DNA of 57,217 bases from Gemmatimonadaceae bacterium. Its GTDB lineage: Bacteria > Gemmatimonadota > Gemmatimonadetes > Gemmatimonadales > Gemmatimonadaceae. The stretch's first letter is position 1; each line of letters begins with the position of its first letter. Location: assembly GCA_036003045.1 (NCBI GenBank), contig DASYSS010000044.1, positions 1-57,217 on the forward strand, written 5' to 3'. Position numbers and translations under genes: made by a program. Of this stretch, positions 2,044-56,952 are shown in pieces. The notes under the pieces were generated by a model, which worked only from the letters and a program-made list of their open reading frames with translations, made no database searches and was not told where the DNA came from.

Positions 2044-2265
2044 ATGCGACGACCACAAAAAGCTTGTCCGTTCTGCGAGACGCGCGTTCGCTACGTCGAC
2101 TACAAGGACGATCGCACGCTCGGCCGTTTCATCACGGATCACGGGAAGATTCTCCCGAGCCGGTTGAGCGGCACTTGCTCTCGGCACCAGCGTCAGCTGT
2201 CGACGGCCATCAAGCGCGCTCGATACTTGGCGATCATTCCGTACACGCGGGGCCTTCAGCCCTAG
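2044..2265 (+). CDS. rpsR: 30S ribosomal protein S18
   Basis: 73-aa S18, partner of S6 on the 30S platform. Typical elements are [25 protein letters not shown], the [12 protein letters not shown] helix and an RYLAIIPYT end. It keeps the zinc-ribbon type residues CPFC near the N-terminus and C-x2-H (CSRH) after SG, so it is probably the zinc-binding form. The order rpsF-rpsR-(membrane protein)-rplI matches the conserved bacterial operon. Confidence 0.97.
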
Positions 2266-2268
2266 TTG

Positions 2269-3378
2269 ATGACCGACCCAGCACCGAACCAGCTGGCTAC
2301 CGATCCGCGCCCGGCCGGCGACGCATCCGCGCCGCCGCCGGCGCCGTCGGAGCGCGGTTGGGGAAAGCTCTTTCTCGCTCTCGCGGCGTTCGTGCTGCTC
2401 CCGATCACGCCGTACGTGCGCGCCCTCCTGCCGATGGAGCAGACGATGATGCTCTTCGTGCCGGCGGTCGCGGCGTGCGCGCTCGTGGGATGGTGGGCCG
2501 GCGGCCGGGCATTCTTCGCGATCGCGTGGGTGGCGATCGCGGTGGTGCTCACGGTGCAGCCGCCCGGAACGGTTGGGCCGTTCAGCAACCTGGCACGCGG
2601 TTGGAGTCTGCTGTTGGCCGGCGCGTTCGGCATCGTCTGCCTGTTGTCCACCGATCGTCCGTTCTTCACGCGGGCGATGGCCGCGCTGGTCATGACGTTG
2701 GGCCTCGCCACGGTGATGGCTTTCCTCGGCCCGGTTTCGGCGTCGCGCACGGCGACGATCATGTCGGACGAGTTCTCGCGGCGGAACGGCGAGACGATGG
2801 CCGCTGTCACGCAACTGGTCCAGTCGCACCCGAAGGAGTGGCAGCAGCTCGTCGACAAGATTCCCGCACTGTCGGACGCGCCGAATCAGACCGAGGATGG
2901 ACTCGCGTCCATCTCGGGCTTCGCGCGAACGATTTTCCCTTCTCTACTCGCGCTCGAATCGCTCGCCGCGCTCGCGCTCGCCTGGGCCACGTACCACCGG
3001 CTCGGACGCACGCGACTCGGCGCGCCGCTCAAGCCGCTGCGCGAGTTTCGTTTCAACGACCAGTTGGTCTGGGGACTGATCGTCGGACTGACGACGGTTC
3101 TCGTTCCGACTCTTTCCACGCTGCGCGGCCTCGGACAGAACCTGTTGGTCTTTTTCGGAACGCTCTACGCGGTGCGCGGCCTCGGCGTTCTCTCGTGGTT
3201 CATGGCGCCCGGCAGTCTGGGCGTCGCGATCACCGTGGGCGTCGTGCTGCTGTTCGCTCCCGTGCTACAGGCATTCGCCCTCGCCGCGTTTCTTCTCCTC
3301 GCCGTGGCGGCGCTCGCGCTCGGCCTCGGCGACACCTGGGCTGACTGGCGCGGACGCGCCGCTCGCCCCGCGCCGTAA
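2269..3378 (+). CDS. DUF2232-type multi-spanning membrane protein
   Basis: About 369-aa integral membrane protein placed between rpsR and rplI, the position held by DUF2232 (YybS-like) proteins in many bacteria. A Pro/Ala-rich cytoplasmic head precedes about eight hydrophobic segments. The first four fall at roughly residues 35-165 and the rest after residue 230, separated by a polar stretch with SHPKEWQQL. ATG 2269 is the likely start; a TTG lies directly before it at 2266, immediately after the rpsR stop. The molecular role of the family is unknown. Operon position suggests co-expression with ribosomal proteins. Confidence 0.8.
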   Translation: MTDPAPNQLATDPRPAGDASAPPPAPSERGWGKLFLALAAFVLLPITPYVRALLPMEQTMMLFVPAVAACALVGWWAGGRAFFAIAWVAIAVVLTVQPPGTVGPFSNLARGWSLLLAGAFGIVCLLSTDRPFFTRAMAALVMTLGLATVMAFLGPVSASRTATIMSDEFSRRNGETMAAVTQLVQSHPKEWQQLVDKIPALSDAPNQTEDGLASISGFARTIFPSLLALESLAALALAWATYHRLGRTRLGAPLKPLREFRFNDQLVWGLIVGLTTVLVPTLSTLRGLGQNLLVFFGTLYAVRGLGVLSWFMAPGSLGVAITVGVVLLFAPVLQAFALAAFLLLAVAALALGLGDTWADWRGRAARPAP

Positions 3379-8889: not shown

Positions 8890-11800
8890 TGCGACTGACC
8901 AAGCTCGAGTTGCAGGGCTTCAAGTCGTTCGCCGACGCGACGCACTTGCAGTTCGATGCGGGCGTTACGGCGATCGTCGGCCCCAACGGGTGCGGCAAGT
9001 CGAACGTGTCGGATGCGGTGCGGTGGGTGCTTGGCGAGCAGCGCGCACGCCTGCTGCGCGGCGCGAAGATGGAAGAAGTCATCTTCCAGGGCTCCTCGGC
9101 GCGGCGCGCGGTCAATGTCGCGGAAGTCTCTCTTCACTTCTCGAATGAAGACGGCACCTTGCCCGTCGCGTTCCAGGAGGTCGTCATCACGCGACGGCTT
9201 TCTCGGTCGGGCGAGAGCGATTACTTCCTGAATCGCGCGCCCTGCCGTCTTCGCGACATCTCCGATCTGTTGCGCGGCACGGGCCTCGGCGCCGACACAG
9301 GCGTCGTCATCGAGAGCAAGATGATCGACGCGCTGCTGTCGGACCGGCCCGACGACCGGCGCGAGCTGTTTGAGGAAGCCGCCGGCGTCGGTCTCTATCG
9401 CGATCGCCGGCGAACCGCCGAGCGGCGCCTCGAGGAAACGACGGTCGACCTGCAGCGCCTCGACGACTTGATCAGCGAAGTCCAGAGCCAGGTCCGTTCG
9501 CTCGCGCGCCAGCGTCGCCGCGCCGAGAAGCACGCGGAGCTCAATGCCCGGCGGTTCACCGTCGAGCTCGCGCTCGCCAAGCGCGAGATGGAGGCGTGGC
9601 ACGACGAGTTGGGACGATTGACCGAGCGCGTTCACGCGCTTCGCGAGGGCGCGCCCGGTGCCGACGCCGGCGTCGGCGCCGCCGAACAGGCGCGCGACAC
9701 CGCGCACGGCAATCGCGCCGCGGCCGAGGCGCAACGCACCGAGCTGCTTCGCCTCGTCTCGAGCCAGCGCGAGCAGTCGCTCCAGATCCGCTCGGAGATG
9801 AAGGTGGCGGAGGAACGCCAACGCAATTCGTTGGCGCGCCGCCAGCGGGCCGAGATGGAAGCCACGGAAGGCGTGGCCTACGGCAGCCGCCTCACCTCGG
9901 ACATTCAAACAGCGGTCGACGACCGCGCGCGGCACGAAGAGGTGTTGAACGCGGCGCGAGGGTCCCTCACCGAGCGCCAGCAGCGCGAGGACGAGGCCCG
10001 GCAGCTGGTCGCGCGCAGCCGGGCGACGGTCGACGACGTCGAACGCGCGCATCGCGAGCTTCAAGATCGCGCGCGTCGCGTCGACATCGAGCGGGAGCGG
10101 ACGCGCCAGGAGAGCGACGAGCTCGTGCAGCGGCTCGAGCAGCTCGCCGACGAGCGCTCACAGCTCGCCGACGCGCTCTCCGGCGTGGCGCGCGAGATCG
10201 AGGACGCATCGGTCGTGATGGAAGACGTGCGCCGCCGCGTCGCCGAGTCGGTCACGACGCTCGAGGCGGCGCGCGCCACCGACCGCGAGGCCCGCGAGCG
10301 CGAGTCGCTCGCCCGCGCCGAATTGTTCCGCGCCGACGAGACTCACACCTCGCTCCAAGGCCGCGTCAACGCGCTCGATTCGCTCGAGCGCGAGCGAGTC
10401 GGGCTCGCCCCGGCGACCGCGCGACTGCTTCGCGAGCGCGAGCGATTCGGCGAAGGCGCGGTCCTCGGCCCGCTCAGCGATTTCATCAATGCCGACGAGC
10501 CTTCGGCGCTCCTCGTCGAACGTTTCCTCGGCGCGACCGTTCACGCCGTCGTCGTGCGCGACATGTCCGTCGCCGCCGACGTTCGCGCGTGGCACGCGAC
10601 CGCGAACCCCGGGCCGCTGCTCCTTCTGCCGTTGGACGCGATCCCCGACGCGCTCGTCGCCGACGAACGTCCCGACGCTCTGTCGCATCGTGTCGACTCG
10701 TCGGGTCCGGTCCGCGCGTGGGTGCGCGGGCTGCTCGGTCACGCGAGCCCGGTGGACGAGGGCGCGGCCTTCATCGACATGCGCGGCGCGGTCTGGCTAC
10801 CTGGCCTCATTGGTGGTCCGGGACCGCTGCGTCGTCGCGCGGAGTTGTTCGCGCTGCGCGCCGAGCTCACAGCCACGGAAAAGGTCCGTGCGTCGGCAAT
10901 CGAAGCGGCCGATGCGGCTCGCGTCGCGGCGCAGGAATGCGAGCGCGCTGCGATCGAAGCCTCTGGGGCGCTCGAGACGGCTCAGGTCGAGGCACGTCGT
11001 GCCACCGAACGTCACGGTGAGCTCGACCGCCGGCGACAGCGCGTCGAACGCGAAGTCGGAGACGCCGATGCACTCGCCATTCGACTCACGCAGCGCCGCG
11101 ACCAGCTGACCGATCAGGCGACGCGCCTCGACGCCGAGGCGCTCGCCGTTTCGCACACCGTGCTGGAGTCCGCGGAATCCGGGACCCGCGCGCGCGACGC
11201 GTTCGCCGTCGCGGAACACACGTACGAAGAGGCCCGCGAGGCTCGCACGGCCGCGCAGATCGAGGTCGCGCAGTGTCAGGCGCGCCTCCAGGTGGCACAC
11301 GACCGCGAGCATCGCCTCACCGAAGAGCAGAAGTCCGCCGCGACCCGCCTCGAAGCGCTGCGCGCCGAGCTGTCCGACCTGGCGCTCGTCGACGCGCAGC
11401 TGGCCGATCAGATGGCCCTTTGGCAGCTCGACCTCGAGACTCGCGACGCCACGCTCGCCGACGGCGAGCGGCGGCTCATTCTCGCCGAAGAAGGCGTGCA
11501 GGGCGCGGATGCATCGCTGACGTCCGCCGAGCACGCGCTCGACGACGCGCGGCGGCGCGCCCAAGCGCACCACGAGGAGTTGCATCAAGCCGAGCTGCGC
11601 CACACGGAGCTCGGCGGCCGCCGCGCCGCGATCCGCGAACGGCTCGAGGCCGAGTGGCGCCGGCCACTCGACGAGATGCTGACCGAAGTGCAGCCGCTCG
11701 AGATGGACGACGCCACACTCCGCGCCGAAGCCGAATCGCTGCGCGACGAGATCGAGCGATTGGGGCCGGTCAACGTGCTCGCGATCGAGGAGCACGACGA

Positions 11801-12419
11801 GACGGTCAAGCGCCAAGACTTCCTCACCACCCAACGCGCCGACCTCGCGGACGCGAAGGCCACGCTGCAACAGGCCATCCGCGAGATCGACACGACGGCG
11901 CGCGAGCTCTTTCTCGCAACCTTCGCCGAGGTCCGCGACAACTTCAGGCAGATTTTCATGTCGTTGTTCGGCGGCGGCGAGTGCGACCTCCGGCTCGAGA
12001 ACCCGGATGCGCCGCTCGACTGCGACATCGAGATCCACGCGTCGCCGCGCGGCAAACGCACGCAGCGGATCCACCTGCTGTCGAGTGGAGAGCGGGCGCT
12101 CGTCGCGCTGTCGCTCTTGTTCGGCATCTTCCTCACGAAGCCGAGTCCGTTCTGCCTGCTCGACGAGGTAGATGCGCCGCTCGATGACGCCAACGTCGGG
12201 CGCTTCGTGAAGATGCTCACACAATTCAAGTCGCGAACCCAGTTCATCGTCATCACGCACAACCCGCGCACGACGACGGAAGCCGCCGACGCGGTTTACG
12301 GCGTGACGATGCAGGAGCCGGGCGTGTCGTCGCTCGTCAGCGTCCGGATGCGCGGCGCGACGGCGGTGGACGAGGTGCTCGCCACGTCGAACGCCGACGG
12401 TGCCGTCGCGCACGTGTGA
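8889..12419 (+). CDS. smc: chromosome segregation ATPase SMC
   Basis: 1176-aa SMC, normal family length. Head: MRLTKLELQGFKSFAD, Walker A GPNGCGKSN with VRWVLGEQ, and the Q-loop region. Two long coiled-coil arms rich in Glu/Arg/Ala flank a hinge at about 500-660 (LGPLSDFINADEPSALLVE). The C-terminal head carries the signature LLSSGERALVALSLLF and Walker B with CLLDEVDAPLDD, and ends with the FIVITHNP switch. The signature has LSSGE where most SMCs have LSGGE. It starts at GTG 8889, overlapping the previous stop. It would act with ScpAB, which are not in the window. Confidence 0.96.
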   Translation: MRLTKLELQGFKSFADATHLQFDAGVTAIVGPNGCGKSNVSDAVRWVLGEQRARLLRGAKMEEVIFQGSSARRAVNVAEVSLHFSNEDGTLPVAFQEVVITRRLSRSGESDYFLNRAPCRLRDISDLLRGTGLGADTGVVIESKMIDALLSDRPDDRRELFEEAAGVGLYRDRRRTAERRLEETTVDLQRLDDLISEVQSQVRSLARQRRRAEKHAELNARRFTVELALAKREMEAWHDELGRLTERVHALREGAPGADAGVGAAEQARDTAHGNRAAAEAQRTELLRLVSSQREQSLQIRSEMKVAEERQRNSLARRQRAEMEATEGVAYGSRLTSDIQTAVDDRARHEEVLNAARGSLTERQQREDEARQLVARSRATVDDVERAHRELQDRARRVDIERERTRQESDELVQRLEQLADERSQLADALSGVAREIEDASVVMEDVRRRVAESVTTLEAARATDREARERESLARAELFRADETHTSLQGRVNALDSLERERVGLAPATARLLRERERFGEGAVLGPLSDFINADEPSALLVERFLGATVHAVVVRDMSVAADVRAWHATANPGPLLLLPLDAIPDALVADERPDALSHRVDSSGPVRAWVRGLLGHASPVDEGAAFIDMRGAVWLPGLIGGPGPLRRRAELFALRAELTATEKVRASAIEAADAARVAAQECERAAIEASGALETAQVEARRATERHGELDRRRQRVEREVGDADALAIRLTQRRDQLTDQATRLDAEALAVSHTVLESAESGTRARDAFAVAEHTYEEAREARTAAQIEVAQCQARLQVAHDREHRLTEEQKSAATRLEALRAELSDLALVDAQLADQMALWQLDLETRDATLADGERRLILAEEGVQGADASLTSAEHALDDARRRAQAHHEELHQAELRHTELGGRRAAIRERLEAEWRRPLDEMLTEVQPLEMDDATLRAEAESLRDEIERLGPVNVLAIEEHDETVKRQDFLTTQRADLADAKATLQQAIREIDTTARELFLATFAEVRDNFRQIFMSLFGGGECDLRLENPDAPLDCDIEIHASPRGKRTQRIHLLSSGERALVALSLLFGIFLTKPSPFCLLDEVDAPLDDANVGRFVKMLTQFKSRTQFIVITHNPRTTTEAADAVYGVTMQEPGVSSLVSVRMRGATAVDEVLATSNADGAVAHV

Positions 12420-44392: not shown

Positions 44393-44412
44393 TCCCAAAC
44401 GCGAATAGTCCC
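44381..44412. repeat. 16-bp tandem duplication at the left edge of the cassette array
   Basis: AACGCGAATAGTCCC occurs twice (44382-44396 and 44398-44412) with one variable base before each. The first copy holds the TAG of the upstream gene; the second ends on the first base of the comM-fragment stop. It may be a trace of the recombination that set the left border. Confidence 0.6.
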
Positions 44413-44888
44413 TAACGCTGTCGATATCGCAGCGCCTCGCCAACGTGTTCGCTCGTGACGACATCACTCGCATCGAGGTCGGCGATCGTTCGTGCGACGC
44501 GCAAGACGCGATGATACGCCCGCGCCGACAGGTGAAGCGACTCCGAACCCTCGACGAGACGCCGCCGAGCATCCGCGGCGAGTTGGCCTCGCGTGAGAAG
44601 CCATCGACCGGAGGCATGTGCGTTGCACGTGATGCCTCTGGTTGCGGCATAACGGCGACGTTGCAGCGAGCGCGCCGCTTCCACTCGGCTTCGAATCGCT
44701 ATTGAACTCTCCGCCGTGGTGTTCGCATCCAGGGTGACCAGCGGCACCGGCGTGAGTGTCACCTGCATGTCGATGCGATCGGCCAACGGCCCGGACAGCC
44801 GCGAGCGATACTTAGTGATCTCTGATTCGGCGCACACACACGCCCTGGTCGGGTGGCCGAGGTACGAGCAGGGACAGGGTTTCGTTGC
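44412..44888 (-). pseudogene. comM 3' fragment, copy A
   Basis: About 159 codons homologous to the C-terminal third of ComM, from the codon for Ala ~345 (in AAMNPC) to the stop. It is closer to the intact gene at 55444 than the other copies are (ADRIDMQVTLTPVPLV; NAHASGRWLLTRG; ending ALRYRQR). The ATG that opens copies B and C reads AGG here and the sensor-motif Met is Thr, so only a GTG at 44837 could start it. Walker A and B are absent, so it cannot be an ATPase. The break falls exactly where the HTH gene at 44885 begins. Confidence 0.85.
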
Positions 44889-45307
44889 CCTTCTACCGGT
44901 GGTGCCTGGCCGCCCGAGTCCCGGTTCCGGGATATCCGGCCACCCTCGACCACATCGGACACCATATCCTCAAGCGCCGGCTCGACCTTGGGCTCAAGCA
45001 AAAGGAGGCCGCCCGGCGACTGGGCGTTCATCCGGGAGGCCTCGAAAACTGGGAATACGGACGGACGGTCCCCGCCGACCGCTTCATGCCGGCTGTGATC
45101 CATTTCCTAGCCTACAATCCATCGCCCGCACCGAGGACGACGGGACAACGGGTGGCATATGAGCGCGTTGCCCGCGGCTGGTCCCGGAAACGCCTGGCTG
45201 CAGAAGCCGGAGTAGATGAGGCTACGGTTCGACGAATGGAGGCGGAAACGCCCCGACCTGCTTATCGCTCCGTTCTGGCCTTGCTGACGGCACTGGGAAT
45301 TGAGTGA
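44885..45307 (+). CDS. XRE-type double HTH protein, copy A
   Basis: 140-aa protein with two helix-turn-helix units: residues about 20-75 (IGHHILKRRLDLGLKQKEAARRLGV, NWEYGRTVPADRF, VIHFLAYNP) and about 88-140 (VARGWSRKRLAAEAGVDEATVRRMEAE). The RRLDLGL-Q-KEAA...FLGYNP style belongs to a widespread family of small HTH proteins. It starts at TTG 44885, and that TTG lies within the comM-homologous sequence. Divergent from fragment A. Likely a DNA-binding regulator or recombination accessory; target unknown. Confidence 0.85.
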   Translation: MPFYRWCLAARVPVPGYPATLDHIGHHILKRRLDLGLKQKEAARRLGVHPGGLENWEYGRTVPADRFMPAVIHFLAYNPSPAPRTTGQRVAYERVARGWSRKRLAAEAGVDEATVRRMEAETPRPAYRSVLALLTALGIE

Positions 45308-46019: not shown

Positions 46020-47807
46020 TCATTCGTTGAAGAGATAGTGATGCCACACGCTTCGAATGGTGGAGAGATTCCACGATGCGGGCGGGCTTGGCCACGATAC
46101 TGTACTCGGGGGCGAGTTGTATGCCGAGAAATGGTTTGTAGCATCTGTGCTTATCGACTCTTCGGCACAGTAGACCAAGTAGTCCGCTCCCGTGATGTGA
46201 GAGCCGGACAGCCGGCAATCTCGTACCATTTGCGCTATGTAGGTGTCGCCGAGGTTGGAAGAACCTCGAGCCAGATTGTACAGTGTGCGTGCCACTTCGC
46301 CCTCAATGTCACGCCCATTAGAGACATCCGAATGTGTTCCAGTAATGCCGGATGTCAAAAGTGCGGTCTTGCTCGACAGAATTGCGGCCGCATGATAGTC
46401 AGCGAAGCCCTCTTCCCACGCACACCCCATGTTGTACGCTGTCCACATAGTGTGGGTCGAGCCGCAATCGCCGTTATGATAAATTCCGCCAAGCGACCGC
46501 GCGTGTAGGGCGTGGCCAAACTCGTGCGCCACAGCGAACCAGCCGTAGTCATTGAAAACGGAGCGGTTCGGTCCGCTTTGCATTACGTACATGCTATTGT
46601 TGACTCCAGATCCAACTCCGACCTTGTCCCAGAAGGCCGCGTTCAATTGGTAGAACGTGGTGTTGCCGCAGTCCCCGTTGAAAGTGCCGAGACAACCCGG
46701 GTCGGTGATGATCACGTTGAACCCGCCGGGCGAGAATCCCGTGAAATGAGCGGCCGAAGAGTCTACGATCATTAAGAGATGCTCATACACCGCAGTTGGG
46801 GCACTTGCTAGCTCCGCGTCGCCACCCTCGGAAAGGCAGCTACCAAGGTCCTCGTAGGTGCCTCCGCCAGTCGGATTGGAGTACATCGTAAATCCGCCCT
46901 CGTCATACCGAAATTCCCCAGAGATGTAATAGTCCCATGAGTCGGGGCACCTCGCGACGTATTGGCCGTTGGCATCCGTGCCATCGTACCAGTCCGCGAA
47001 ACACTGGCCATCAACGTATTGGCACTCCTGCGTATGGACGGTGACCCCTGCCGCCGGACTATACGTCGGAGTCGATCCAAGCGAATCGAGAAAGACCAAA
47101 CGCCGATCGCCTGCGGACATCAGCGTCGATTCTCGCTGACGCGGGGCACGACTCAGATTCGCAATGGTCGACGATAGGCCTGATTGGGAATTCCGCACGG
47201 CGCGCGACCGCGCCGGACCTGGGCGCTTCAAGAGGCTATCCGGAACAACGCTGGGGTCGAAGGTCGGGGTGATCTTGCCATTCGTGCTGTCGGCGAACAC
47301 CCAGAGCTCTTTGTAGAGACTGGGTTGAATCACGTGCCCGTCGGGCGCCACGTCGCCTTCGCCTGACAACTTTCTAACGACGGCCAACACGCGATAATAG
47401 CCGGCGACGGGAACCTGGAAAACCGCGTTGGCCGTGAGCGCTGCGCCCGTGAGAGCTGATGCTGAGACTGTCGCCGCTGCGCCGATTCGTTGGCCCGGCA
47501 GTGTCACCAGGCGTTGCCAGCCCCCACGCTCCGCGGCGTCGGCCTCAGGAAAGTAAATGGCAACTTCCGCATTCGACGTATTCAACAGTCCATGCGCAAC
47601 AGCATGAACTTGGAGCGGCGCGTTGGGGCGCGGATCACCGGAGATCGTCAGGTCCAGACCGAAGCGTTCCTCGCCGCTGATGTGGATATTCGGCGCCGCT
47701 GCAACGACCGCGGCTGGCGATGGCTTGGAGGATGTGATCGTGTCGTCCGCGCAAGCCGACAAAAGCGCGGATACAGCGAAGACCGGGAGGAGATACTGGC
47801 GCAGCAT
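46020..47807 (-). CDS. secreted zinc metalloprotease lipoprotein (HExxH)
   Basis: 595-aa lipoprotein (signal LPVFAVSALLSAC-ADD). A beta-rich N-terminal region (about 45-175) leads to a catalytic part with HEFGHALHARS at 428-432 and a following EEGFADYHA helix that could supply the third ligand, a gluzincin-like layout. Eight or more cysteines in the second half suggest disulfides outside the cytoplasm. Codon use is less GC-rich than in the core genes, suggesting transfer. It is the first gene of cargo 1, with a leader region of up to 380 bp. Confidence 0.8.
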   Translation of the reverse strand: MLRQYLLPVFAVSALLSACADDTITSSKPSPAAVVAAAPNIHISGEERFGLDLTISGDPRPNAPLQVHAVAHGLLNTSNAEVAIYFPEADAAERGGWQRLVTLPGQRIGAAATVSASALTGAALTANAVFQVPVAGYYRVLAVVRKLSGEGDVAPDGHVIQPSLYKELWVFADSTNGKITPTFDPSVVPDSLLKRPGPARSRAVRNSQSGLSSTIANLSRAPRQRESTLMSAGDRRLVFLDSLGSTPTYSPAAGVTVHTQECQYVDGQCFADWYDGTDANGQYVARCPDSWDYYISGEFRYDEGGFTMYSNPTGGGTYEDLGSCLSEGGDAELASAPTAVYEHLLMIVDSSAAHFTGFSPGGFNVIITDPGCLGTFNGDCGNTTFYQLNAAFWDKVGVGSGVNNSMYVMQSGPNRSVFNDYGWFAVAHEFGHALHARSLGGIYHNGDCGSTHTMWTAYNMGCAWEEGFADYHAAAILSSKTALLTSGITGTHSDVSNGRDIEGEVARTLYNLARGSSNLGDTYIAQMVRDCRLSGSHITGADYLVYCAEESISTDATNHFSAYNSPPSTVSWPSPPASWNLSTIRSVWHHYLFNE

Positions 47808-48423: not shown

Positions 48424-48900
48424 TCAGCGCGGTCGAAACCGTAGGGCCTCGGCAACGTGGGACGGAGCCACGGTGTCACTAACGTCGAGATCGGCGATCG
48501 TCCTCGCCACGCGAAGCACACGATGGTATCCGCGCGCCGAAAGATTCAACGACTCGACGGCCGCACTGACCGTCGCTCGTGCCTCTGGCTCAATGTTGCC
48601 GCGGCTAAAGAGCCATCGGCCCGAAGCTTGGGCGTTGCACGCGACCGCGGTCCCAGCGAATCGCGCACGCTGAACCCTTCGACTCCGCTCGACACGCGCG
48701 CGAATGCTCGACGAGGGCTCGCCGTCGGCCGGTCTCTCGAGCGACTCCGGTCTGAGAGGCGCGAGCGTGACATGCATGTCGATGCGGTCCGCCAACGCTC
48801 CGGAGAGGCGCGATCGATACTTGATGATCTCCGCCTCGCTGCACGTGCACGGTCTCGTCGGATGACCCAAGTAACAGCAGTTGCAGGGTTTCGTTGCCAT
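48424..48900 (-). CDS. ComM C-terminal-domain-only protein, copy B
   Basis: 158-aa intact frame matching only the C-terminal third of ComM (NCCYLGHPTRPCTCSEAE, RSRLSGALADRIDMHVTLAP, NAQASGRWLFSRG, YHRVLRVARTIADL, ending ALRFRPR). It starts MATKPC; the ATG lies just beyond the shared breakpoint. It has no Walker motifs. It keeps the CxxxxC-x-C cysteines. It is closer to copy C than to A or the full gene. The frame is undamaged despite clear divergence, which suggests selection rather than decay. It overlaps the start of HTH B by 7 bp. Confidence 0.8.
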   Translation of the reverse strand: MATKPCNCCYLGHPTRPCTCSEAEIIKYRSRLSGALADRIDMHVTLAPLRPESLERPADGEPSSSIRARVERSRRVQRARFAGTAVACNAQASGRWLFSRGNIEPEARATVSAAVESLNLSARGYHRVLRVARTIADLDVSDTVAPSHVAEALRFRPR

Positions 48901-49391
48901 TCTACCGGTGGTCGTTGGCCGTCCCGCGCCGCATTCCGGGCTATCCAGCGGCGCTCGAACACATTGGCCACCACATTTTGAGGCGCCGGTTGGATCTCGG
49001 ACTGGAGCAAAAAGAAGCCGCCCGTCAGCTCGGCGTTCATCCCGGGGGGCTCGAGAACTGGGAATACGGCCGGACGACGCCCGCCGACCGATTCATGGCT
49101 CGCGTGATTCGCTTTTTGGGTTACAATCCGGCGCCTGAACCAACAACGCTGGGAGCGAGCGTCGCCTACGAGCGCATCGCGCGTGGCTGGTCCCGAAAAC
49201 AGCTCGCCGCGCACGCGGGAGTCGACGAGTCGACGGTCGGACGAATCGAGGAAGACGCTCCTAGGTTGGCTCGTCGGCCGCGCCTAGCTGTGTCAACAGC
49301 CTTCAAATCGAATCCTTCGCCGCGCCACGATGGGACCGCTCGGCTCGCAGAACCGCAACGAGCCACACATCGCACCCGCGAAGGCGGCTAG
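48894..49391 (+). CDS. XRE-type double HTH protein, copy B
   Basis: 165-aa protein close to copy A: MPFYRWSLAVPRR, ALEHIGHHILRRRLDLGLEQKEAARQLGV, NWEYGRTTPADRF, VIRFLGYNP, then a second HTH (ARGWSRKQLAAHAGVDESTVGRIEED). It runs about 40 residues past the point where copy A ends, into unrelated Arg/Ser/Thr-rich sequence, so the original stop is lost. TTG 48894 is the start. TTG and the CAT of the comM fragment share the 7 bp TTGCCAT. Confidence 0.82.
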   Translation: MPFYRWSLAVPRRIPGYPAALEHIGHHILRRRLDLGLEQKEAARQLGVHPGGLENWEYGRTTPADRFMARVIRFLGYNPAPEPTTLGASVAYERIARGWSRKQLAAHAGVDESTVGRIEEDAPRLARRPRLAVSTAFKSNPSPRHDGTARLAEPQRATHRTREGG

Positions 49392-49424: not shown

Positions 49425-50309
49425 TCAGAGTCCGGCGGTGGCAGCGAAAGCCGCTGATAGCGTCTCCATTTCCGAATCGAGCGTGACACGCTCGCCAGTG
49501 CGGAGAGCGGCCGCCACGGTGCCCCCAAGCAGTTTCAAGTCTCGGACGACAGCGGGCCTCCCGAGCGTTGCCGCCAACGAACGCGCTACGTACGCCCGGG
49601 CGCCCACGATGGCGGCCCTAATCGAGCTGTCCAGCCAGAGGACCTGCCACAGGCTGCCCAGTGTCTCGGTAGCGAGGATTCGGCCTTCGATCGGTGCCAG
49701 CGCGAGCGCGAGTGGATCTCTGGCGGCGAGCGGCCGGCCAGAAAAGGGCAGATGCGGACAACCGTCGCGCAGGTGGATTGCGCGCCAGTCGCCCGGAGCG
49801 AACGCACTCCACCTGATGTCTCTATTGCTCGCCAGAACAACGTCGCGCGCAACGCGCGACGACGCGCAGACGGTGACCCTCGATACTCGCGCTATCTCGC
49901 TCAAAAGTCGAGTCGCCGCATACTTCACGGTCCTCCCACTGGAGGCGGCATCGTCAATGATTCCGGCCAGGCCCAACTCGGCTCCGTAGCCGGGCGGCTC
50001 GCTCGGCATCCCGAACCGGAGATCAACGTCTCGGGAAATTCGGAGCGGACGAAGGCTAGGATCAAGGTGCGGCGTAGGAAAAAGCGGATCCAGTACAAAC
50101 CACGTTTCTTGACCTTGGAGTCGGACTCCGTTCGCCCAGGTCACATACGCTGAATGTTGTACGGTGTCCCACCCTCGGCGCGCGAAGTACCCGAGGACAG
50201 CCGCACGAATGCGTTCGGCAGCCGGAGCAAGAATAGACCGCCCCAAGTCGGTCGTCAGCGCTAGCGCCGAGTCGACGTCATCAATCACGAGACATCCGGG
50301 ATCCGACAC
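49425..50309 (-). CDS. phosphoribosyltransferase-like protein
   Basis: 294-aa protein. The segment LAGIIDDAASSGRTVKYAA matches the PRPP-binding loop of type I phosphoribosyltransferases (hydrophobic-Asp-Asp-x4-Gly-x-Thr). The region before it has LDPLFPTPHLDPSLRPL and a VDLRFGMPSEPPGYGA hood-like segment. It is longer than simple PRTases, with a C-terminal extension of about 150 residues. Substrate unknown; nucleobase salvage is the default, but the operon with secreted proteins is odd. It starts at GTG 50309, 16 nt after the preceding gene. It is the last gene of cargo 2. Confidence 0.6.
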   Translation of the reverse strand: MSDPGCLVIDDVDSALALTTDLGRSILAPAAERIRAAVLGYFARRGWDTVQHSAYVTWANGVRLQGQETWFVLDPLFPTPHLDPSLRPLRISRDVDLRFGMPSEPPGYGAELGLAGIIDDAASSGRTVKYAATRLLSEIARVSRVTVCASSRVARDVVLASNRDIRWSAFAPGDWRAIHLRDGCPHLPFSGRPLAARDPLALALAPIEGRILATETLGSLWQVLWLDSSIRAAIVGARAYVARSLAATLGRPAVVRDLKLLGGTVAAALRTGERVTLDSEMETLSAAFAATAGL

Positions 50310-50325: not shown

Positions 50326-51840
50326 TCAGGACCTTGGGGTCAGAGTCAACTTCAAATCCCGCGTCGAATCGGGAAGAAGCTGCAGTCGAAATCCGACGGT
50401 TTGGTATCCTGGGTGACTAACGGTGAGTCCCACGACCTTCGCGGGGAGTGTCCGAATCGCGAAATGCCCCGAATCGTCACTAACCGACACCCGCACAGGA
50501 TTCGCGACCGCGATGAGCGCGCGGCCGAGCGGACGGCCAGCCGGGTCAGTGATGAGTCCAGAGAGCCCGGCCGGGAACCTGCCGGCCTGCCTTTCGTCGA
50601 CCCGCTGCATGACAGATTCCACAGCGCTGTCTCGGTAGACCCCAACGCCATTGCGCGTAACCGCCGCGATCATGCCCTCATTCAAGCTGAGGCGAGGTAC
50701 AGGAACCTGCACATGCTCGCACGCCGGGCCGCGATCGCAATCAACGACTCGCCCGTGCTCGACTTGAACCTTGAACGGCGTCTGATGCAATTCGTAGGAC
50801 TCGGCCGGCGTGCGGATATGCCACTGGCTGACGAGCCATTCTCCCGTACGCGTATAGGAATAAACCAGCGTACCGCCTAGTCCAGCGTCATTCGGCGGCG
50901 CGAAGCACACCCTGCCCTGCTGGTTGCATATCCTTGTCGGCGCATATTGAAGATTTATATAGCTAAAATCGAGCCGTCTTAACGTACCCGTCGCCCGATC
51001 AAGCCAAAGCGTGCCAGCGACGTCTGTAATCGTGTCGGAGGCCGTAGGAAAAAACTTTATGCCGATCCAGTCCCCATGGTCGGATGGAGAAGCCTCAACA
51101 CCGAAGCAGTGCCTCTCCAGGAAGGAATCCGAGAGCAACATGTCGGCACTCGGCGCATCGAAGATGACACCGCCATCCGGTCGAAGTCGAACGTAGCCTC
51201 CGGAAGCGAGGATCTTGATCGGGGTCGTCGCGAAGAGGTGAGACGCGAGGAACTCTCGTGCTCCACTCGAGTCCAACTGCCAATGCCGATTGCGCGGATC
51301 AAGTTCCTTACCGCGCACAATCACGCCAGGCTGATCCTCGGTGCCCTGTATGTTTAGACCATGGATGTCCAGGTCAATGCTGTCATCCGGAAGCCGGGCG
51401 GCCGCGAGCGCACCGCGGGCGCGTTCCCAAGCGATCAGGAACTCGTCTGCCTCAGCGCCGCGAAGCTGGCAATCATCCCGGCCGGTGATGGCGAAGGTTG
51501 GCAACTCGGCGATCTGTGAGGCGAGCACAAGTTCGACCGTGAGAGTATCACCGATCTGGACGTAAGGCGTTGCGACCCGCGTAGGTCGAAACCCGATTCG
51601 CAGGACTCGAAGTTCAAACGTTCCGGCCCGCGGCGATTGGATGGCGTAGCGACCGTCCTTACCTGAAAGCGTTCTTGCGACGGTGACTCCGTTCTCATCG
51701 AGTAGAGACACCGCGACGCCGGCGAAAGTCGTGACGCTGTCCGGCAGCAGGACCCTGCCGCGAATCGTTTGCGCACGGACTCCGGTCGGCATCCAGATCG
51801 ACAGAACGAGCGAGGCGGCGGAAAACAGCAGACTTTGCAT
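50326..51840 (-). CDS. exported CarboxypepD_reg-domain protein (TonB-plug-like N-terminus)
   Basis: 504-aa protein with a signal peptide (LLFSAASLVLSIWMPTGVRAQ). Residues about 25-105 form a carboxypeptidase-regulatory-like domain (TIRGRVLLPDSVTTFAGVAVSLLDENG, SGKDGRYAIQSPRAGTFELRVLRIGF). A plug-like element follows (LPTFAITGRDDCQLRGAEADEF; YVRLRPDGGVIF). A second regulatory-like domain is at about 420-500 (LSGLITDPAGRPLGRALIAV, DDSGHFAIRTLPA). It is too short for a TonB-dependent barrel, so it may be a periplasmic or surface adaptor. ATG 51840 replaces the longer frame because the signal begins there. Confidence 0.65.
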   Translation of the reverse strand: MQSLLFSAASLVLSIWMPTGVRAQTIRGRVLLPDSVTTFAGVAVSLLDENGVTVARTLSGKDGRYAIQSPRAGTFELRVLRIGFRPTRVATPYVQIGDTLTVELVLASQIAELPTFAITGRDDCQLRGAEADEFLIAWERARGALAAARLPDDSIDLDIHGLNIQGTEDQPGVIVRGKELDPRNRHWQLDSSGAREFLASHLFATTPIKILASGGYVRLRPDGGVIFDAPSADMLLSDSFLERHCFGVEASPSDHGDWIGIKFFPTASDTITDVAGTLWLDRATGTLRRLDFSYINLQYAPTRICNQQGRVCFAPPNDAGLGGTLVYSYTRTGEWLVSQWHIRTPAESYELHQTPFKVQVEHGRVVDCDRGPACEHVQVPVPRLSLNEGMIAAVTRNGVGVYRDSAVESVMQRVDERQAGRFPAGLSGLITDPAGRPLGRALIAVANPVRVSVSDDSGHFAIRTLPAKVVGLTVSHPGYQTVGFRLQLLPDSTRDLKLTLTPRS

Positions 51841-51940: not shown

Positions 51941-52639
51941 CTATCGGGCGGGCGCCCGCATCGCGGAACGCGGGAAGCCTTTGTAAGGAGCCCGCCCGTC
52001 CAATAGGTCACCGATAGCCCTCACGATCTCTGTATCCGATGGAGTCCCAGCGTAACGCCAACCGTTTACAAAGACAGTTGGTGTGCCGCGGATCCCCATC
52101 CTAGAACCGACCGCCAGACCCGCCTTAACTAATGGCGGCGTAGTGGTGTCCGCAACACAACTAGCAAAGCGATCGTCGGCGCCGAGGCCGAGGGGCCGCG
52201 CGAGCCAGCGCCAGTCAGCGTTCGATAACGAGTCCTGCTGAGCGAATATTACATCCAAGGCTTCCGGAAGCTTACCGGCATGATCAGCGCATTCCGCGGC
52301 ACGCGCAGCGGCCAGGGAGTGCGCGTGCTGGGCAAGCGGGTAGTGTATTAGTGAATAACTAACTTCGGTTGGATATCGGTCGCGGATCTTCAGAAGTGAT
52401 GAATGAAAGCGCCTACAAAAAGGACATTCCAGATCTGTGAATTCGACAATAGCTACTGGCGCGCTGCGATCGCCGAGCAGGTGGCTCGCCGAAAGAGCCT
52501 GGCCCCAGTCCGCTTCGAATCGAGATCGCTCGCCGGTTGGTGGCTGCTGGAAGAATTCTCGATGGACCAATACGCTGGCGAGGGCGACGGCCGCAATGGC
52601 GAGAATCGCTGACAAGGCCCTGTCCCAAAGAGTTTGCAT
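51941..52639 (-). CDS. membrane-anchored DsbA/thioredoxin-like oxidoreductase
   Basis: 232-aa protein. N-terminal membrane helix (about 8-26, ALSAILAIAAVALASVLV). Thioredoxin fold with active site CPFC at 72-75 (FTDLECPFCRRF) and the cis-proline loop GTPTVFVNG. An extra cysteine pair (AECADH and FASCVAD) may form a second disulfide. It belongs to the DsbA_2/thioredoxin_4 group and should act in the periplasm. GGAGGAAGG precedes ATG 52639. It lies downstream of the Cys-rich peptide gene, its probable client. Confidence 0.88.
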   Translation of the reverse strand: MQTLWDRALSAILAIAAVALASVLVHREFFQQPPTGERSRFEADWGQALSASHLLGDRSAPVAIVEFTDLECPFCRRFHSSLLKIRDRYPTEVSYSLIHYPLAQHAHSLAAARAAECADHAGKLPEALDVIFAQQDSLSNADWRWLARPLGLGADDRFASCVADTTTPPLVKAGLAVGSRMGIRGTPTVFVNGWRYAGTPSDTEIVRAIGDLLDGRAPYKGFPRSAMRAPAR

Positions 52640-52671: not shown

Positions 52672-52706
52672 GCTGCCCCGGATCGGCCGAGCCAATCCGG
52701 GGCAGC
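52672..52706 (-). promoter_or_regulatory. perfect 12-bp hairpin between the Cys-rich peptide and dsbA-like genes
   Basis: GCTGCCCCGGAT (52672-52683) and ATCCGGGGCAGC (52695-52706) with an 11-nt loop, no T-run. It resembles hairpins that partly stop transcription or protect a strongly expressed upstream peptide mRNA. Confidence 0.6.
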
Positions 52707-52786: not shown

Positions 52787-53023
52787 TTAGCTGTCTGCGC
52801 CGCAATAACCCACGTACGGCGCAAATTGCGGGCAATCCCACGTGTTAACCGCGCACTGCGGAAACAGCGGCGGATTGCACGTCTGGTCGAAAAGCGCTTC
52901 GCTGCACGAGCTGTAACAGATCGCTGGCGTGCGAGCCTCGGCCGTGCGGGCCGTCAGTTGCACGGCCGCTCCCAAGATGAGTATAGTCAGAATCTGAATT
53001 CCCAGTCGGCGTCTGGAGCTCAT
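52787..53023 (-). CDS. small secreted six-cysteine peptide
   Basis: 78-aa precursor. Basic start MSSRRRLG, hydrophobic core (IQILTILILGAAVQL) and a likely cleavage after AEA leave a mature peptide of about 47 residues. It has six cysteines spaced C-x3-C-x8-C-x7-C-x6-C-x9-C and many Pro/Aromatic residues (CNPPLFPQC, CPQFAPYVGYC). Three disulfides are possible. GGAGG precedes ATG 53023; the longer frame to 53077 lacks this. The next gene is DsbA-like. It could be an antimicrobial, signalling or structural peptide; the family is not recognised. Confidence 0.75.
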   Translation of the reverse strand: MSSRRRLGIQILTILILGAAVQLTARTAEARTPAICYSSCSEALFDQTCNPPLFPQCAVNTWDCPQFAPYVGYCGADS

Positions 53024-53168
53024 TGAAACCTCCAAGGATGACAAGGTTGGCATGAGGCGCTCAACGATAGCCAGCAAACTGTAACGTTTGGCGATCTACG
53101 CACGGCGGAGTTGTCCACGCAATTGCTTAGAAGTCCCTCAAAGCGCTCCATAGTTCTCGGAACCGGCT

Positions 53169-54122
53169 TCATGCCTGTCGGATATCGGTCTTCGTTCCTT
53201 CGGCATTCGACGCGGGTAAGGAGGATCGGCGTAGGCGATCCGCAAACTGATCAAGGAGAGTCGCAAATGATCTCCGGGCCCGCAGCGCCTTCGGCCGATG
53301 TCCGACATTCCGCCACACGAACTCGCTCAACGATGCTTCCGGGCGTGCCGATTTGCCGTAGCCCGCGAGATGAGCAGCTTCTTGCGGGGTAAGGCCCAAT
53401 ACTTCGAGCCGCCAGACGGAGTGAAGGACGACCACCGCGTGCAGAAGCTGCCTTGGCGCTGGGGCCGCATGCCGGCGAAGGTGGGCCCGCAGTGTGCTGT
53501 TTGCCATGCGGCACGCCTGCGACAGAAGTGCTACGTTGATCCGCCCCCGGGCGAGCAAGACGACCGCCGTCACTGGGACTGCTATGTCTCGATCGATACG
53601 TGGGGCTACTTCGCTCAGAATTGCGGCATGGGCGTCGGGCAGGGGCGCCCACGCAAGGGCGGCGCGCAGGTCCGTGGCAAGGTCGTCGAACCCGATCAAT
53701 GATACGCGCCATTTCAAGTCGTACGCTCGCGCCAAATGGGCGAGCGCCAGCACATCTCGCGCCGCGCCATCGCTGAGATCGCAACGGACTATGAGAGGTA
53801 AGTGAGCAACGAGTGGCAGTGTCCTTTCATGCCAGTCCGAAACACGCTGCATTCCGGCGGAAGCCTCGATTACAACGACGCCAGCCTCGAAGTTCGTGCC
53901 GGCGGCGCGATCTTGATCAAAAAGGCCGGCGCGACTGCGCACCAGAACAAGTTGGCTCCCGGTTTGACTCGCAAGCGTTCGCAGCTCGACCGCCGTTCCG
54001 CCAGAAACCAACGCGATGACGGCTGGCTCCCGCCTTGCAGGGCCGCGCCTCGCGAATCGAAGAGGCGAGTCTTTCCCCCGACGATGTCCATTTCCCTTCG
54101 TCTCACCTCCCCGATGTCCCAT
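53169..54122 (-). CDS. AraC-type HTH regulator (start or frame uncertain)
   Basis: Up to 317 aa. The C-terminal 100 residues have an AraC-like double HTH (INVALLSQACRMANSTLRAHLRR, VLHSVWRLEVLGLTPQEAAHLAGY, LSEFVWRNVGHRPKAL). The N-terminal 150 residues form an alpha/beta domain (PAVIALVSGGTAVELRTL, GVVVIEASAG, LPLIVRCDLSDGA) that may sense a signal or be receiver-like. The first 33 codons after ATG 54122 are basic and unconvincing. A good ribosome site precedes an ATG at 54106 in another frame, so the start is downstream or a frameshift exists. Probable regulator of cargo 2. Confidence 0.6.
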   Translation of the reverse strand: MGHRGGETKGNGHRRGKDSPLRFARRGPARREPAVIALVSGGTAVELRTLASQTGSQLVLVRSRAGLFDQDRAAGTNFEAGVVVIEASAGMQRVSDWHERTLPLVAHLPLIVRCDLSDGAARDVLALAHLARAYDLKWRVSLIGFDDLATDLRAALAWAPLPDAHAAILSEVAPRIDRDIAVPVTAVVLLARGRINVALLSQACRMANSTLRAHLRRHAAPAPRQLLHAVVVLHSVWRLEVLGLTPQEAAHLAGYGKSARPEASLSEFVWRNVGHRPKALRARRSFATLLDQFADRLRRSSLPASNAEGTKTDIRQA

Positions 54123-54707: not shown

Positions 54708-55181
54708 TCATCTCGGCCGAAATCGTAGCGCCTCGGCGACATGCGGCTCGCACACTTTCTCGCAGTCGGCGAGATCGGCGATCGTCCGCGCCACCCGAAT
54801 GACGTGGTGGTATCCGCCCCCCGAGAGGCTGAGTGATTCCATGGCGGCTCGGATCATCGCTCGCGCCTCGCGGCCTATGTTCCCGTTCGCAATCAGCTGC
54901 CGGCCTGACGCCTGCGAATCGCACGTGACGGCTGTTCCGGTGAACCGCACCCGCTGCATCGCTCGACTCAGCTCTACTCGCGCGCGGATGCTCGACGAGG
55001 ATTCACCGTCGCCAGCGCTCTCGAGCGACTCCGGATGCACCGGCGCAAGCGTGACGTGCATCTCAATTCGGTCCGCCAACGCACCCGAGAGTCGGGACCG
55101 ATAATTCAGAATCTCTGCCTCACTGCACGTGCACGCCCTCGTCGGATGGCCTAAGTAACAGCAGTTACAGGGGTTTGCCAT
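54708..55181 (-). CDS. ComM C-terminal-domain-only protein, copy C
   Basis: 157-aa intact frame, starting MANPCNCCYLGHPTR and ending ALRFRPR. Homologous to the last third of ComM and most similar to copy B (RSRLSGALADRIEMHVTLAP, SIRARVELSRAMQR). No ATPase motifs. It differs from B at many residues without frame damage. The start ATG (55181) overlaps the TTG of the decayed HTH C by 7 bp, the same geometry as copy B. A longer frame to 55214 reads through the HTH start and is not needed. Confidence 0.8.
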   Translation of the reverse strand: MANPCNCCYLGHPTRACTCSEAEILNYRSRLSGALADRIEMHVTLAPVHPESLESAGDGESSSSIRARVELSRAMQRVRFTGTAVTCDSQASGRQLIANGNIGREARAMIRAAMESLSLSGGGYHHVIRVARTIADLADCEKVCEPHVAEALRFRPR

Positions 55182-55440
55182 TCTACCGGTGGTGCCTGAC
55201 CGCGGTAAAGCCAATTCTCGGTTACCCTCGAGAATTGAGGCACCTAGGGGACCACCTGGTTAAGCGCCGTTTGGACCTCGGGCTGCGGCAGAAAGAGGCG
55301 GCCAGGCGACTCGGCGCGGCTAGAGCCTCCGGAACTGGGAGACCAATAGGCGCCGGCTTCATCTCCGGTTTTGTCCGGCCGTGATCGCGTTCCTCGGCTA
55401 TAACCCTCTGGCCGCAGGTAGGACCGGCGGCGCGGTCGTG
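55175..55440 (+). pseudogene. decayed XRE-type HTH gene, copy C
   Basis: It begins like A and B (MPFYRWCLTAVKP, RHLGDHLVKRRLDLGLRQKEAARRLG), then small indels shift the frame where A has VHPGGLENWEYGR. The first frame stops at 55384. The homology resumes as VIAFLGYNPLAAGRTGG in another frame and ends a few bases before the comM stop; the second HTH unit is missing. No cargo lies between it and the intact comM. Confidence 0.85.
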
Positions 55441-55443
55441 TCG

Positions 55444-56952
55444 CTAGTGTTGCCGATAGCGCAACGCCTCGCCGACGTGCTCGCTCGTGACAGCTTCACT
55501 CTCACTGAGGTCAGCAATCGTTCGCGCTACTCGCAGGACGCGGTGATAGGCCCGTGCCGACAAGTGGAGCGACTCCGAGCCCTCGACGAGAAGCCGACGG
55601 GCATCCGCGGCAAGGTGGCCTCGCATGAGCAGCCACCGACCGGACGCGTGCGCGTTGCACGTGACCCCTCTGGTCGCGGTATAGCGTAGACGCTGCAGCG
55701 CGCGCGCCGCGTCCACGCGGCTCCGAATCACCCTTGAACTCTCTGCCGAGGCGTTCGAATCCAGGTTGACGAGCGGCACTGGCGTCAGCGTGACCTGCAT
55801 GTCGATGCGATCGGCCAACGGACCGGATAGACGAGATCGGTATTTAGTGATCTCTGATTCCGCGCACATGCACGGTCTTGTCGGGTGACCGAGGTACGAG
55901 CAGGGACACGGGTTCATTGCCGCGATGAGCGAGAATCGCGCGGGAAACGCGACGCTCAACGCCGCGCGAGCGATCACGACGCGCCCGTCCTCGAGCGGTT
56001 GACGCAGCGCCTCGAGCGCCGCGCGAGGAAACTCGAGCAGCTCGTCGAGAAACAGGACGCCGTGGTGGGCCAGGCTCACCTCGCCGGGGCGTGGGACGCC
56101 GCCGCCGCCGACCAGCCCAGCCGACGAGATGGAATGATGCGGCGCGCGGAACGGTCGCGCGGATACGAGACCGCCGGACGGCGGAAGCATGCCGACGACC
56201 GAATGGATCGCCGTGACCTCGAGCGACTCCTCCTCCGTGAGTGACGGAAGAATCGATGGCAGCCGTCGCGCGAGCATCGTCTTCCCCGCCCCGGGCGGCC
56301 CGACGAGGAGGCACGCGTGCCCGCCGGCCGCCGCGATCTCCAGCGCGCGCTTCGCGCTCGCCTGCCCCGAGACGTCGGCGAAATCAACGGACTCGTCGCA
56401 CGCGGCCGCCTCGATCGCTCCCATGGCACGCGACAACGATCCCGCCCGCAACGATTCGACGAGCGACACGAGCGAGTCGGCGGTGAACGTGCACAGCGAT
56501 CGCACGAGCGACGCTTCGGCCACGTTGGGCGGCGGGATCACGAGTCCGCGCAACGCCGCCGCGCCCGCGAGATGTCGCGCGACCGACAGCACGCCGCGCA
56601 CCGGTCGAATCACACCGTCGAGCCCCAGCTCGCCGAGGAACGCGAGTCCGTTCGTGCACTCCGCCGGGAGCGCACCGAGTGCCACGAGCAAGCCGATGGC
56701 GATTGGGAGGTCGAACCCGGTTCCTGCTTTCCGTTGATCGCCGGGTGACAAGCTCACCGTGACGCGGCGAGCGGGGACGGCGAAGCCGGAGTTGGCGAGC
56801 GCCGCCGTGACGCGCTCCCGGCTCTCTTTCACTTCGCCGGACGGAAGACCGACGATCGTCCAGTGCGGGAGCCCTTGGGCGACGTCCACTTCGACGCAGA
56901 CGTCGTAGGCGTCGATTCCCAGCACAGCGGCGGATCGGATCGCGGCAAGCAT
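55444..56952 (-). CDS. comM: intact ComM/YifB, Mg-chelatase-like AAA+ ATPase
   Basis: 502-aa ComM, a branch-migration helicase that promotes integration of DNA during natural transformation. N-terminal Lon-like ChlI domain (about 20-165; GIDAYDVCVEVDVAQGLPHWTIVGLP). Walker A GPPGAGKTM at 217-225, Walker B VLFLDELLEF near 303, sensor AAMNPCPC at 344-351 and the Mg-chelatase C-terminal domain from 370. All key residues are present. The breakpoint seen in the fragments maps to Ala ~345. It starts at ATG 56952, with an upstream gene on the other strand. Confidence 0.95.
   Translation of the reverse strand: MLAAIRSAAVLGIDAYDVCVEVDVAQGLPHWTIVGLPSGEVKESRERVTAALANSGFAVPARRVTVSLSPGDQRKAGTGFDLPIAIGLLVALGALPAECTNGLAFLGELGLDGVIRPVRGVLSVARHLAGAAALRGLVIPPPNVAEASLVRSLCTFTADSLVSLVESLRAGSLSRAMGAIEAAACDESVDFADVSGQASAKRALEIAAAGGHACLLVGPPGAGKTMLARRLPSILPSLTEEESLEVTAIHSVVGMLPPSGGLVSARPFRAPHHSISSAGLVGGGGVPRPGEVSLAHHGVLFLDELLEFPRAALEALRQPLEDGRVVIARAALSVAFPARFSLIAAMNPCPCSYLGHPTRPCMCAESEITKYRSRLSGPLADRIDMQVTLTPVPLVNLDSNASAESSRVIRSRVDAARALQRLRYTATRGVTCNAHASGRWLLMRGHLAADARRLLVEGSESLHLSARAYHRVLRVARTIADLSESEAVTSEHVGEALRYRQH

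Follow-up and report, generated by a model that had tools for sequence, protein, structure and literature searches.

A recurring gene cassette in Gemmatimonadota that pairs a predicted secreted, cysteine-rich peptide with its own DsbA-like protein

A Gemmatimonadaceae genome, of a soil-type bacterium, carries one copy of a widespread and apparently undescribed gene cassette, which is inferred to make a small, cysteine-rich secreted peptide together with its own disulfide-forming enzyme and an envelope partner protein. The cassette lies in a 57,217-nucleotide stretch (GenBank assembly GCA_036003045.1, contig DASYSS010000044.1), referred to here as the window, which belongs to a genome of 5.37 Mb. 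The five genes lie on the minus strand and are listed below in order of transcription, together with one intergenic element.

53169-54122, minus strand: AraC-like transcription regulator with a divergent N-terminal domain
52787-53023, minus strand: precursor of the predicted secreted six-cysteine peptide (78 aa; signal residues 1-30; mature part of 48 aa at 52790-52933)
52673-52705, minus strand: perfect hairpin between the peptide and dsbA genes, possibly a processing, stability, or attenuation element
51941-52639, minus strand: membrane-anchored DsbA-like thiol oxidoreductase with a CPFC active site
50326-51840, minus strand: secreted CarboxypepD_reg (CPD) protein, the putative envelope partner (a GTG start at 52011 is possible)
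49425-50309, minus strand: phosphoribosyltransferase (PRTase)-like cytoplasmic protein, a rare accessory gene of the cassette

The precursor starts with ATG, preceded five bases upstream by GGAGG, and has a Sec-type signal, MSSRRRLGIQILTILILGAAVQLTARTAEA, that ends in AEA. The six cysteines of the mature part follow the spacing C-x3-C-x8-C-x7-C-x6-C-x9-C exactly, as noted in a preliminary description of the locus. The DsbA-like protein has an N-terminal hydrophobic segment that appears to be uncleaved, the sequence ECPFC, and a match to Pfam Thioredoxin_4 (PF13462; 3.2e-26); the nearest solved structures are of the DsbA and BdbD types. The CPD protein (1.3e-24) consists of a CPD domain, a conserved middle region of ∼250 aa, and a second CPD domain. 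The regulator is only a subthreshold match to HTH_18 (1.4e-4; 22.6 bits against a cut-off of 33.6), but a four-member profile of it matched the AdpA DNA-binding domain (6.4e-9). Assignment of the PRTase-like protein is weak in the window (Pribosyltran, E = 0.21; 3.3e-4 in a homologue), although the motif IIDDAASSGRT is visible.

Direct searches identified no convincing homologue of the peptide. Viral contigs gave nothing, and three hits within the family, at E values of about 0.005 to 0.009, were taken as chance; the one examined overlaps a long unrelated coding frame. No Pfam or NCBIfam family covers the peptides, and searches with PADLOC and PDB profiles likewise gave no family. We therefore searched with the neighboring genes. 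Homologues of the CPD protein and of the regulator led to 40 regions, and a strict scan of these for small ORFs with a signal and several cysteines gave five loci besides the window. Four of the five were exactly the regions that also held a DsbA-like CxxC protein, and the fifth lies on a contig with such a DsbA just outside the region retrieved. An alignment of these DsbAs was then searched over 179 genomes of the family, and 60 regions around the best hits were read; most show one to three secreted Cys-rich ORFs beside the DsbA gene.

In Gemmatimonadota, 53 of 68 related DsbAs have such an ORF on their own strand within 1.6 kb, compared with 3 of 68 on the other strand. None was found for 20 housekeeping-type DsbAs of the same family. 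A scan of genome contigs brought ordinary DsbAs of many phyla, which served as a control set; 4 of 83 have such an ORF, one of them on a contig of the same genus as the window. Outside the DsbA neighborhoods there are 6 such ORFs in 1.04 Mb, or about one per 170 kb. The loci were chosen by DsbA score from a seed of five peptide-bearing operons, and the small-ORF, start, and cleavage calls come from our own heuristics, so that 53 of 68 is not a census and the controls carry the argument; 15 of the 68 showed no peptide by our criteria, some of them near contig ends. Peptides of the same make-up occur in other families of the class.

To examine whether the window peptide belongs to this group, a profile was built from the peptides of other operons, with the window peptide left out. 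It ranked the window peptide first of 7,332 small ORFs (E = 1.4e-6). Shuffling the mature part reached its score in 1 of 500 cases with the signal kept, and in 2 of 500 for the mature part alone. Part of the score comes from the signal, as signal-kept shuffles averaged 14.8 bits against 28.5. The window peptide has no close relative, and its membership rests on this profile. The preliminary description had read the precursor, the disulfide enzyme, and the surface protein as a peptide production and display or sensing system; this reading is supported by the recurrence of the three genes together across the class, although display or sensing as the end use is neither shown nor excluded. The Cys spacing, which it had proposed as a search pattern, is specific to this peptide; related peptides mostly have 6, 8, or 10 Cys with varied spacing, and the pattern would have missed nearly all relatives.

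Among 90 DsbAs of this kind, 69 have a peptide, 52 a 6-bladed propeller gene, and 27 a CPD gene; 75 have one or the other of the latter two. Of four propellers scanned, three match PF17170 (DUF5128), one of them above its cut-off; the window has a CPD gene instead. Homologues of the CPD protein fill the same slot in seven other loci, and longer CPD proteins end in a TonB plug-like domain without a barrel. Nine loci hold a protein of ∼1,220 to 1,280 aa; of the two tested with Pfam, both have CPD and a subthreshold plug, and one has an outer-membrane-barrel match. Large proteins of this CPD-plug type were noted on the strand of the DsbA genes in seven loci. MacB/FtsX-type permease genes, possible exporters, lie close to the DsbA gene in five loci. 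The AraC-like gene, which the preliminary description had included in the operon, is not a constant part of the cassette: a same-strand relative lies near 12 of the 90 DsbAs, and relatives sit upstream of the peptide in eight named loci. The PRTase-like gene was found in 4 of 179 genomes, and in 3 of these, including the window genome, it lies beside a DsbA cassette. The 147-nucleotide intergenic stretch that contains the hairpin folds at z = −4.06, with no shuffle as good, and the hairpin is unique in the window. It may set the ratio of the two products in this operon; strong hairpins were found in only a minority of other operons, however, and we rejected the hairpin as a defining feature.

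In 77 peptides, the mature part holds an even number of Cys in 70 and an odd number in 7 (P = 3.5e-14 against random parity), mostly 6 or 8; the median mature length is 57, and the median net charge is −3. Secretion was inferred from signals found by our own script rather than by a trained predictor. The DsbA subfamily mostly has CPFC with Thr-cisPro (GTPT in the window enzyme), and an extra Cys pair (C117 and C161) is invariant in 22 aligned relatives. VKOR, the likely reoxidizing partner, is present in the window genome and in 19 of 20 genomes searched. In a FastTree tree of 168 DsbAs, separation of the cassette family from housekeeping and generic DsbAs needs three changes, and the window DsbA falls in a group of 46 with a local support of 99, of which 41 have a peptide; FastTree supports are weaker evidence than bootstraps.

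The mature part can diverge far faster than the leader or DsbA. In one pair of operons with DsbAs 73% identical, the mature peptides are only 28% identical, while the leaders stay alike; mature dN is 0.886, against 0.201 for DsbA and 0.136 for the leader. dN/dS is below 1 in every pair where both could be computed, so these are coding sequences under constraint. Some pairs of genomes had identical peptides and are uninformative about rate. Six cassettes have two or three tandem divergent peptides near one DsbA gene, with similar leaders and changed mature parts.

We propose that the precursor is exported by the Sec pathway and cleaved after AEA, and that the membrane-anchored DsbA-like protein of the same operon, probably reoxidized by VKOR, forms three disulfides in the 48-aa mature peptide. 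Sec export is inferred from the signal, and oxidation from the enzyme family, the even Cys counts, and the strong gene linkage; in the absence of expression, disulfide, or activity data these steps are well supported but not shown, and we consider them likely. The peptide may then work at the outer envelope with the third gene product, here a CPD protein and elsewhere a 6-bladed propeller or a large TonB-linked protein, acting as its carrier, receptor, or immunity partner, which is inferred from linkage only. The AraC-like gene likely controls expression. We hold the reading of the locus as a cassette of secreted peptide, dedicated oxidation, and envelope partner with reasonable confidence.

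The end use is unproven. The faster divergence of mature peptides in the pairs measured fits a role in recognition or antagonism between bacteria, which is our tentative preference. The peptides are acidic, however, unlike typical cationic antimicrobials, and no outer-membrane exporter and no recognizable immunity gene is constant. A broader reading, which the data leave about as likely as not, is of an undescribed class of fast-diverging, disulfide-locked peptides, spread through the class of Gemmatimonadota that holds this genome, each made with its own subfamily of membrane-anchored DsbA and usually paired with an outer-envelope partner, forming a diversifying recognition or antagonism repertoire that travels partly on mobile islands. 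Gemmatimonadota are common soil bacteria with few cultured members, and little is known of how they interact with neighbors. If this interpretation is correct, they hold a large natural library of short disulfide-rich peptides that can be found through the linked dsbA despite having little sequence similarity, which gives a search rule for new bioactive scaffolds and a set of dedicated oxidative folding enzymes for producing them.

The main alternative is peptide signaling, in which the oxidized peptide is a secreted cue, the CPD or propeller protein its envelope receptor, and the AraC-like gene the response regulator or its output. A regulator gene lies directly upstream here and in about ten other operons, the partner is a surface-type protein, and the mature part varies behind a conserved leader in close pairs. 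We consider this unlikely, though it remains the strongest rival: regulator relatives lie near only 12 of 90 DsbAs, no relay between envelope and regulator is encoded here, and tandem divergent peptides in one operon, seen in four loci, suit a repertoire better than one cue. A structural role appears somewhat less likely again. It is suggested by the frequent envelope partner (75 of 90), the large TonB-linked-type protein in nine loci, and the acidic composition, but does not by itself explain why the peptide diverges faster than its DsbA or why several peptides share one cassette. It is improbable that the DsbA-like enzyme serves the large envelope protein, with the small ORF as a bystander or redox buffer. 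The CPD proteins do have two conserved cysteines (C124 and C245 in a five-row alignment), but the peptide stands beside DsbA, on its strand, whichever large partner is present, keeps even Cys counts, and in some loci accompanies DsbA without either partner within range. A chance, untranslated ORF, although consistent with the lack of direct homologues and family matches, is very unlikely given the leave-one-out profile, the Shine-Dalgarno sequence and signal peptide, dN/dS below 1 in equivalent peptides, and the low background of such ORFs.

No description of the cassette was found among open-access papers, which does not exclude one elsewhere. In make-up the peptides resemble the NVEALA peptides (PF14055) of Bacteroidota, which are also small, secreted, and Cys-rich, but PF14055 gave no match in the window genome, while a Bacteroides control was positive, or in 38 peptides tested, and a DsbA-like gene is the constant partner here. 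In outline the cassette, as inferred here, would work like the sublancin/glycocin clusters of Bacillus SP-beta (PMC4336743), which appear to combine a secreted disulfide peptide with a dedicated Bdb thiol oxidoreductase. Here, however, there is a Sec signal in place of what is probably a double-glycine leader, a Gram-negative envelope partner is present, and a Pfam search of all genes of the window cassette found neither a glycosyltransferase nor a peptidase-type ABC transporter. The window enzyme is a clear member of the DsbA/BdbD/Wolbachia-type DsbA family (PF13462), within a subfamily that has an N-terminal membrane anchor and is largely separate in the tree from housekeeping Gemmatimonad DsbAs. 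Defensins and other disulfide-rich host defense peptides are similar in size and Cys content, but the best PDB profile hit, to Big defensin, was nonsignificant (E = 0.12), and the peptides are acidic. Structure predictions, for which only window sequences were usable without relatives, gave a pLDDT of 62 for the peptide and 39 for the CPD protein, and no fold is established.

The cassette lies between partial copies of the 3′ end of comM (Mg chelatase-like), at 44408-44918, 48424-48921, and 54708-55214, and the full comM gene at 55444-56952. Each partial copy is next to a small divergent HTH gene (44885, 48894, and 55175), and two cargo segments lie between them, as if elements had inserted repeatedly into comM. 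The other cargo segment encodes a 595-aa lipoprotein-like secreted protein with an HEFGH metalloprotease-type motif and many cysteines (46020-47807, minus strand). The window genome has four such comM matches, and other members of the genus have one or two. In one of the retrieved loci, L068, two transposase-like genes (2053-3141 and 11077-12120 of that locus; IS110 type by eye) flank a cassette with AraC, six-Cys peptide, DsbA, and propeller. These arrangements suggest that cassettes may move.
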